From positions 682,001-746,000 of the forward strand of contig NZ_FOZS01000002.1 of assembly GCF_900116205.1 (NCBI RefSeq): a stretch of 64,000 nucleotides of DNA. The letters run 5' to 3'. A program made the translations under genes and the position numbers. Below the pieces are notes generated by a model. It made no database searches. It was not told where the DNA came from and saw nothing but the letters and a program-made list of their open reading frames with translations. The DNA comes from Halostagnicola kamekurae (GTDB taxonomy: Archaea > Halobacteriota > Halobacteria > Halobacteriales > Natrialbaceae). Positions within the stretch are counted from its first letter, which is position 1. Each line of letters begins with the position of its first letter. Below are positions 46,475-48,026 of the stretch, piece after piece.

Positions 46475-46794
46475 TGGACGCGATAGTCTCCGGTCCGGAC
46501 GAAGACGGTCTCGGCGATGCACTCGAGGCCGAAGGCGTCTCCGTCACCCGACTCGAGGGGACGCTCAGCCGCCCGACGCTCGAAGAAGCGGGAATCCTCG
46601 AGGCGGATCTGTACGTGCTGACCGACGTCGGCCAATCGACTACGGTCCCGATCGCGCTGGATCTGAACGACGACCTCCGGACGGTCGTCTACGCGCGGGA
46701 CTCGGTGCCGGAGTTCGTCCGCGGTCAACTCGACCTCGCGCTCGATCCCGCGTTGATGGAACCCGCGATGGTCGCCGAGGAACTGGTCGGCTGA
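46474..46794 (+). CDS. Small conserved protein after guaA (DUF7126-like)
   Basis: 106-aa protein with a Rossmann-like alternation: [40 protein letters not shown] and TVVYARDSVPEFVRGQLDLA, similar to nucleotide-binding TrkA-N halves. Homologues in haloarchaea are sometimes mislabelled CTP synthetase because of their position. Its ATG at 46474 overlaps the guaA stop; a GTG at 46471 is an alternative. Third gene of the operon; function unknown. Confidence 0.75.
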   Translation: MDAIVSGPDEDGLGDALEAEGVSVTRLEGTLSRPTLEEAGILEADLYVLTDVGQSTTVPIALDLNDDLRTVVYARDSVPEFVRGQLDLALDPALMEPAMVAEELVG

Positions 46795-46847
46795 TCCGGA
46801 CGGCACCGCTCGAGTGCGTCTTGTCCCAAACCGGACAAAATGGCCGA

Positions 46848-46853
46848 TTTAAA
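46848..46853 (+). promoter_or_regulatory. TATA box of the putative structured RNA
   Basis: TTTAAA in ATGGCCGATTTAAACTATC, with no protein-coding start about 25 nt downstream. Transcription would begin near 46876-46880, just before a run of strong stem-loops. Confidence 0.6.
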
Positions 46854-46877
46854 CTATCTAACTACAGATATAGGCGT

Positions 46878-47200
46878 TTTGAACTGTGCTTAATCGCGAG
46901 GTAACTCGGAATAAGATGGTACTACCATCGCCATCGTTGAAGTGGAAACCGACGATAGCTGGGAGTGGAGGTCGACGGGCACACCCACACGAAGGCACCC
47001 ACCGCCTTGGACCCGTGACTTCCAGCAACCCCACCACAGCACCCTTCCCCCACTTGCCATCCCGGCGCGGCGATGCGGGTTCGCTGCACCGACCCGCATC
47101 GCGCTTCGGAATGGCTGTCGGGACGACGAGTCCCGACGTGGATCCTCACAACGGATCACCCACCAGATCCCCGAGAGTTGTCTGTGATTCTCTCGGTGCT
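46878..47200 (+). ncRNA. Candidate structured non-coding RNA
   Basis: No supported protein lies in 46795-47291. On the plus strand stems are: CGAG(GTAA)CTCG at 46897-46908; GATGGT(ACT)ACCATC at 46915-46929; 46958-46966 with 47018-47026 enclosing 46975-46979/47012-47016 and AAGGC(ACCCACC)GCCTT at 46992-47008; 47056-47064 with 47107-47115 enclosing an 11-bp perfect stem 47070-47080/47092-47102; an 8-bp stem 47117-47124/47130-47137; GGATC(ACCCACCA)GATCC at 47153-47170; and CCGAGAG/CTCTCGG at 47171-47196, possibly the terminator. It does not show the hallmark motifs of SRP RNA or RNase P RNA. Ends are estimates; orientation comes from the TATA box. Confidence 0.6.
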
Positions 47201-47291
47201 CGAACCGGCGGGCCGGTCGATGCCGTTCCGCTCGGGTCGAGCACCAGTTTTCGATTCGGAGAGTCGTGAATACCGCCCCGCCACCAGATCA

Positions 47292-48026
47292 CTACCGCAA
47301 TTGGTCGAGAACCGGGATTTCCTCGAGTCGTTCGTCAGAAAGGAGAGCCCAATCGATTCCGGATGGGCCCCTATCGACGGCGTCGTCCGGCTCGAGCGCT
47401 CTGTCGGGTGTGACGATCAGATCCATCGGGACGTCGTGGTCGGTCGTGGGTATCTCCTCGTCGATGCACTGTCGCTCGTGGACGGTCGTCGCGACTGGTG
47501 TCTCCTCGTCTACGAGACCTAATTCGGTGAGGATCGCGTACTCGAGGTCGCTGTAGCCCTCGCCCTTGCCGATCCGTGCGCCCGGGCTCGAGCCCTCGTC
47601 GGTTCCCACCGCGACGCTTCCGGAGACGATCAGGTCGATTTGTGACACCGCTTCGGGGCCGACCTGGACGCCGTGTTCCGACGATCCGGAGACGGTGGTC
47701 GCCGCGTCGTAGTCCTCGAGTTCGTCGGGGTCGAGCCGAAGGAAACACCGCTCGTCGCGAAGCCGGGGAACGGCCATGTAGACGGTCTTTCCCTCGCGAA
47801 GGGCGCGTCGCCGCACTGGCAACTGCGGCGCGTCGGGGTTCGCCTTGATCGTCTCGGCTCGATTCCATTCCGGGCGGGCCGCGAGTCGATCGGCCGCCGC
47901 CTTCGCGCCCGCGAAGTTTGGAATGCGACCGTGTGGAGGAAAGGGGAACCTGGCCTCGCCGCTTTCCTCGAGGTCGTCCCAGACGCGTTCGCGGATGTCC
48001 TGTTTCGACGGAGTGGGCATGCTCAT
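47292..48026 (-). CDS. 5-formyltetrahydrofolate cyclo-ligase family protein
   Basis: 244-aa protein of the MTHFS/NagB-like fold. KQDIRERVWDDLEE at the start, NPDAPQLPVRRRALREGK in the nucleotide-binding region, and ARIGKGEGYSDLEYAIL near residue 155 match the family's GxGGGYYD-type signature in its archaeal variant. It would convert 5-formyl-THF to 5,10-methenyl-THF, although the archaeal variants may act on another substrate. The start at 48026 or the Met at 48020 is possible. Confidence 0.82.
   Translation of the reverse strand: MSMPTPSKQDIRERVWDDLEESGEARFPFPPHGRIPNFAGAKAAADRLAARPEWNRAETIKANPDAPQLPVRRRALREGKTVYMAVPRLRDERCFLRLDPDELEDYDAATTVSGSSEHGVQVGPEAVSQIDLIVSGSVAVGTDEGSSPGARIGKGEGYSDLEYAILTELGLVDEETPVATTVHERQCIDEEIPTTDHDVPMDLIVTPDRALEPDDAVDRGPSGIDWALLSDERLEEIPVLDQLR

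Follow-up and report, generated by a model that had tools for sequence, protein, structure and literature searches.

A predicted structured non-coding RNA of the Natrialbaceae and a helically phased promoter module recognisable in other haloarchaeal families

We analysed a stretch of 64,000 nucleotides (nt) from Halostagnicola kamekurae (contig NZ_FOZS01000002.1, forward-strand positions 682,001 to 746,000; hereafter the window), in which an initial annotation had proposed a highly structured non-coding RNA at positions 46848-47200. With confidence about evenly divided, we read this region as an independent gene that encodes a structured non-coding RNA of roughly 174 nt, preceded by a promoter at 46848-46966, whose product would act in trans and offer an unpaired C-rich block as bait for G-rich target RNAs. 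The predicted RNA lies on the plus strand and probably extends from about 46967 to about 47140, where the start was placed by its spacing from a promoter box and the end by the last covarying hairpin. By BLASTN, the region is found in 112 of 125 Natrialbaceae genomes. An exact 25-mer of the RNA matched 43 named contigs, all of them Natrialbaceae by genus or by label, and none of the viral contigs, on which ground carriage by viruses was rejected. A covariance model of the RNA (R1) matched 93 of 391 genomes of the class, namely 93 of the 101 in its own family and none of the 290 in other families.

Structure and conservation of the RNA

The region 46880-47290 folded at -180.8 kcal/mol, compared with -148.7 kcal/mol (standard deviation 6.2) for 100 dinucleotide shuffles, none of which was as stable (z -5.2). 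Covariation was measured in an alignment (A4) of 30 full-length sequences out of 48 dereplicated ones; 11 diverged sequences, five without a match to the 3'-end pattern, and the loci L044 and L063 were left out, and a separate alignment (A1) omitted six of the 48. The proposed structure left 92.5% of cells paired (88.7% in shuffles), 17 of its 44 pairs had changed on both sides at least once (9.7 in shuffles), and there were 63 such double-sided cells (21.4 in shuffles). None of five covariation measures was reached by any of 500 shuffles, and sliding the register of the structure lowered the paired cells to 37-46%. The structured RNA of the initial annotation is therefore borne out by its fold and by compensatory changes in relatives, although within different limits, since the stems drawn upstream of about 46966 are most likely promoter DNA, as discussed below.

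The covariation signal originates from hairpins P4 and P5, which in the window are the perfect stems of 11 and 8 base pairs (bp) already described. P4 pairs 47070-47080 with 47092-47102 (95.5% of cells paired), and for eight of its 10 pairs both bases have changed in at least one relative. The terminal hairpin P5 (47117-47137) pairs 47117-47124 with 47130-47137, and the same holds for nine of the 12 pairs of the aligned helix. P4 lies within the P4a/P4 domain (47056-47115), whose outer stem GCCAT/ATGGC joins 47056-47060 to 47111-47115; the inner part of P4a is weaker than P4, with 72% of cells paired. A self-match on the opposite strand at 46950-47290 reflects the strand symmetry of P4 rather than a second copy. 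The first stem, P3, is formed by TGGAGGTCGACGGG (46966-46979) and CCCGTGACTTCCA (47012-47024); as helix 1 of the covariation test it had 99.5% of cells paired, with a nearly frozen sequence. In diverged genera P3 has been swapped for other fully paired sequences, GGAGACCACG/CGTGGTCTCC in genus g2 and GTGGAGGCC/GGGCTTCCAC in genus g27, and in genus g7 it is rebuilt as GGAGGC/GCCTCC. The predicted 5' end of the RNA carries UGGAGGU (46966-46972), which is exactly complementary to the 3' end (ACCUCCA) of the genome's own 16S ribosomal RNA (rRNA; L175) and is locked within P3, with a conserved G-U pair.

P3 and P4a are separated by a conserved unpaired C-rich block (47025-47055, plus strand) with 97% column identity in A4. 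In 47 relatives, the unpaired probability averages 0.84 over the 24-nt core of the block, compared with 0.39 for the rest of the RNA. CACC-type motifs, counted with overlaps in 48 relatives, number 11.7 per RNA, compared with 3.4 after mononucleotide shuffling of these RNAs. Diverged lineages retain the C-richness and not the exact motif. The block is the most conserved part of the RNA and probably binds a partner. The shared sequence ACCCACC pointed out in the initial annotation is present at 46997-47003 and 47158-47164.

Known RNA families and protein coding were also considered. Searches of Rfam 15 at the gathering score returned no match in the window or in 20 related loci; at an expectation value (E) of up to 10, the region 46780-47300 gave sub-threshold matches only, the best being symR with 21 bits against a cut-off of 61. 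Ribonuclease P (RNase P) RNA (RF00373) and signal recognition particle (SRP) RNA (RF01857) were rejected, since the single copy of each lies elsewhere in the genome (C2:211049-211484 and C2:805351-805662, respectively, where the window is C2:682001-746000). An antisense action on rRNA, RNase P RNA or SRP RNA was likewise rejected, as complementarity did not exceed that of shuffles. Chance open frames exist on both strands; however, coding was rejected on account of frame-breaking indels in relatives, where open reading frames (ORFs) beginning in the first 120 nt encode 0-188 amino acids (median 82.5, 48 relatives) and an ATG occurs within the first 60 nt of the RNA in only 11 of 48. The earlier statements that the region holds no believable protein and is neither SRP nor RNase P RNA were thus upheld. 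Literature searches, limited to the main text of open-licence papers, showed no description of the RNA or of its promoter module, and the accessible portions of PMC2864571 name no haloarchaeal RNA of this kind.

According to Pfam assignments of the neighbours, guaA-DUF7126 lies upstream of the RNA gene on the same strand and a 5-formyltetrahydrofolate cyclo-ligase gene is convergent on the other side. This convergent neighbour was present at 58 of 65 fetched loci, so that the RNA has no same-strand gene to lead into there. As expected of haloarchaeal trans-acting small RNAs (sRNAs), the predicted RNA is an independent gene with its own promoter module, its frame is broken by indels in relatives, and it is not the leader of a same-strand gene.

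The phased upstream module and the predicted start

Upstream of the RNA, positions 46848-46935 (plus strand) form a module of A/T elements in helical phase that ends in TACCATC. When 48 dereplicated relatives were anchored on the TATA-like box that follows it (GTTGAAGT, 46936-46943, consensus GTT(C/G)AAGT), no gap occurred across the module. Its A columns are at 46852-53, 46882-83, 46893, 46903-04, 46913-14 and 46924, and the A/T columns upstream of the box have a period of 10.6 bp that was equalled in none of 2000 column permutations. In this test the 48-sequence half is independent, whereas the 35 promoters from other families, taken without the mis-anchored L222 and L232, came from models that already contained the pattern. 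A promoter-only model (R3) matched the window at 46848-46969 (E 3e-17). A strict pattern for the phased array, applied to 11 genomes, found the locus in seven, nothing in four, and three stray sites with two mismatches; the looser R3 recovered the locus more widely. In one relative (L059, G063:C14:41219-41578) the module occurs twice in tandem, about 150 bp apart, and the upstream copy is followed by only part of the RNA.

The distance from the start of the box to the start of TGGAGGTC is 30 nt in 47 of 48 relatives and 31 nt in the remaining one. Since this spacing is fixed and the ATGs of leaderless genes in other families usually lie 34 nt after the box, we infer a transcription start near 46967, at the 5' strand of P3 and about 30 nt downstream of the first base of GTT(C/G)AAGT; the stems drawn upstream of 46967 would therefore be promoter DNA. 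The initial annotation had placed a TATA box further upstream, and TTTAAAC is indeed present at 46848-46854; however, a core promoter role for it is unlikely, as the spacing of GTT(C/G)AAGT favours 46936-46943. The phased arrangement suggests that a regulator occupies one face of the DNA by cooperative binding, as some ribbon-helix-helix proteins do.

The module in other haloarchaeal families

An intermediate model, R2, retained only nine base pairs and is mostly a sequence model; it matched 97 of 101 genomes of the family and gave 27 weak matches among the 290 genomes of other families. We fetched 17 of these 27 together with three loci from the family, and the alignments inspected for R2-found loci agree through the upstream module. 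R3, at E of 0.01 or below, matched 280 of 391 genomes, of which, among the matches listed, 100 of 101 were in the family and 180 of 290 outside it, where about three would be expected by chance if its rough E-values hold. The genome studied here (G000) contains a second R3 match at this threshold and may hold another gene of the group. A further 20 stretches were fetched after R3, giving 37 examined loci (17 + 20), including one from the diverged own-family genus g7.

The split of these 37 loci into coding and non-coding is our judgement, with an ATG at +31 to +44 from the box and a hydrophobic N-terminus as the criterion. At 24 loci, an ATG 31-44 nt after the box, at exactly +34 in 16 of them, opens a protein with a hydrophobic N-terminus, consistent with leaderless transcripts; L197 was classed as coding from its ORF at +42, although a longer frame is also present. 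In Haloferax volcanii, 72% of transcripts are leaderless according to the accessible text of PMC6560208. The other 13 loci have no credible ATG behind the module and were classed as non-coding structured RNAs, although long chance ORFs remain in several of them (L199, L210, L228 and L234). At non-coding loci, the bases immediately after the predicted start usually make a 5' stem. Under the judged split, 16 RNAs (including L001, L098 and L103; the RNA studied here is one of the 16) had a mean fold z of -2.6, compared with -0.3 for 16 protein loci (one-sided Mann-Whitney p = 5e-5). Where DUF7126 lies in the fetched stretch (16 loci), the module precedes protein genes in eight and non-coding sequence in eight.

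The simplest reading of these comparisons would be one old locus at which the promoter was kept and the product differs. More specifically, and as a tentative proposal that we consider somewhat less probable than its converse, an ancestral locus near guaA-DUF7126 with the phased promoter may have switched its product, so that in different families it yields either a small exported protein or a C-rich regulatory RNA with structure, in which case the RNAs would form one functional class, with a 5'-terminal stem at the start site and a C-rich single strand, under the same regulator.

The products behind the module at protein loci comprise small exported proteins (L200-L203, L208, L209, L218-L221, L229, L230, L232 and L233), lipoprotein-like proteins (L223 and L236) and larger membrane proteins (L222 and L225). 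The last two are related, of about 400 amino acids, and appear glycosyltransferase-like by eye. A VPDxVS-type motif occurs in 13 module-driven proteins. Four module-driven proteins compared with Pfam yielded one archaeal Fn3-like domain and three results without a match near the curated cut-off; for the three small exported proteins among these four, the corresponding figures were one Fn3-like match and two without. The candidate RNAs L212 and L235 (genus g35) have two hairpins in common, one with the loop UGGAUGG and one with CCCCACCC in its loop.

Possible function and comparison with known systems

In the mechanism we propose, a regulator would bind the phased repeats cooperatively and thereby set the expression level. 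The RNA would then act in trans: P3 and the terminal hairpin would shield its two ends and keep the invariant C-rich block open, and this block would base-pair with G-rich target RNAs, presumably messenger RNAs (mRNAs), and so capture them. Elsewhere the module drives exported or membrane proteins, and on this basis we guess that the targets would be mRNAs of cell-surface functions. The layout resembles that of an sRNA, in which a 5'-sealing stem is followed by an open linker rich in pyrimidines and then by a terminal hairpin. The conserved segments of the RNA do not target rRNA, RNase P RNA or SRP RNA, and we therefore favour capture of G-rich mRNAs. Several points weigh against this proposal. 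Transcription and both ends of the RNA are inferred, and 10 of the 13 P3 pairs are invariant in A4, so that support for P3 inside the main group is weak. The distant promoter matches came from models built step by step, which inflates confidence, and E-values of such home-made models are rough; the coding/non-coding split is, as stated, a judgement. Finally, when five conserved segments were compared with four RNAs (rRNA, RNase P RNA and SRP RNA) against 40 mononucleotide shuffles each, the lowest value lay only about 1.9 standard deviations below the shuffle mean.

The main rival to mRNA capture is a protein partner. CsrB-type RNAs bind CsrA through GGA motifs, and the RNA may similarly be a platform or sponge for an RNA-binding protein that recognises the many CACC motifs of its loops and linkers. 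The excess of these motifs over shuffles is in keeping with this, as are the lack of an intramolecular partner for the C-rich block and its invariance over 30 nt, which exceeds that of most seeds. However, no candidate protein was identified and diverged lineages preserve C-richness rather than the exact motif, and we judge a platform or sponge to be rather unlikely. Less likely still, the transcript could be a relic of a gene for an exported protein, or its by-product, and be kept for the sake of the promoter or of transcription as such rather than for the RNA. Although the even division of products at the guaA-DUF7126 locus would fit a relic, column identity is 97-99% in P3 and the unpaired block, and hairpins P4 and P5 show covariation. 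We give equally little credence to a longer RNA that takes in the upstream stems, with the AT-rich box at 46848 as its promoter and a start near 46880. The longer region also folds well, and the TATA-like aTRAAC (46849-46854) is kept in at least 43 of 48 relatives at its central columns, but 46850-46966, in contrast to the RNA itself, is gap-free and has A/T elements with a period of 10.6 bp, and in other families the same stretch precedes the start codons of leaderless genes. A guide RNA for rRNA modification, of the H/ACA or C/D type, is very improbable: CCACAGCACC contains ACA and haloarchaea reportedly need H/ACA guides for 23S sites (accessible text of PMC2584109), yet there was no Rfam match, none of the five conserved segments compared with rRNA formed a duplex beyond its 40 shuffles, and the RNA found by R1 is confined to one family, whereas guides for shared sites should be class-wide.

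A trans-acting RNA with an open C-rich block would offer a probe-ready molecule in most members of a whole family, and the invariant unpaired block makes the question of its targets directly testable. The module can be recognised across much of the class and suggests a haloarchaeal regulator not yet described, together with a set of co-regulated exported proteins, most of them unclassified. If true, the switch between protein and RNA products at one locus would be a rare natural case of such an exchange, with RNA taking the place of protein, or protein that of RNA, while the regulator stayed the same. To our knowledge, deep conservation, a covarying structure and a recognisable promoter family are seldom found together in an archaeal small RNA.

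Among bacterial systems, staphylococcal RsaE-type sRNAs use an unpaired C-rich segment as a seed for G-rich targets, as proposed here, although RsaE presents short UCCC loops to Shine-Dalgarno sites. As described in the available text of PMC6085418, the sptA promoter of Natrinema sp. J7-2 resembles the module in having elements upstream of its TATA box, a start codon at +5 and an exported product; unlike the module, it carries semi-palindromes and direct repeats of other sequence, and that text describes no such phased array. A halite metatranscriptome (PMC7002113) contains, according to its main text, 22 non-coding RNAs of several Halobacteria that are intergenic, conserved and without assigned function. 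The RNA could be among these, as judged from the main-text description, which lacks the string 'Natri'. A further comparison is with sRNA132 of H. volcanii, which has two stems and a pyrimidine-rich linker (PMC6560208, as far as its accessible text goes). According to the same text, sRNA132 differs in being reported only from Haloferax and in its regulation by phosphate starvation, and a phased module is not reported for it; R1 matches nothing outside its own family. The likeness between the two RNAs is one of synteny among relatives and of layout, with stems and a pyrimidine-rich linker (PMC6560208, accessible text).
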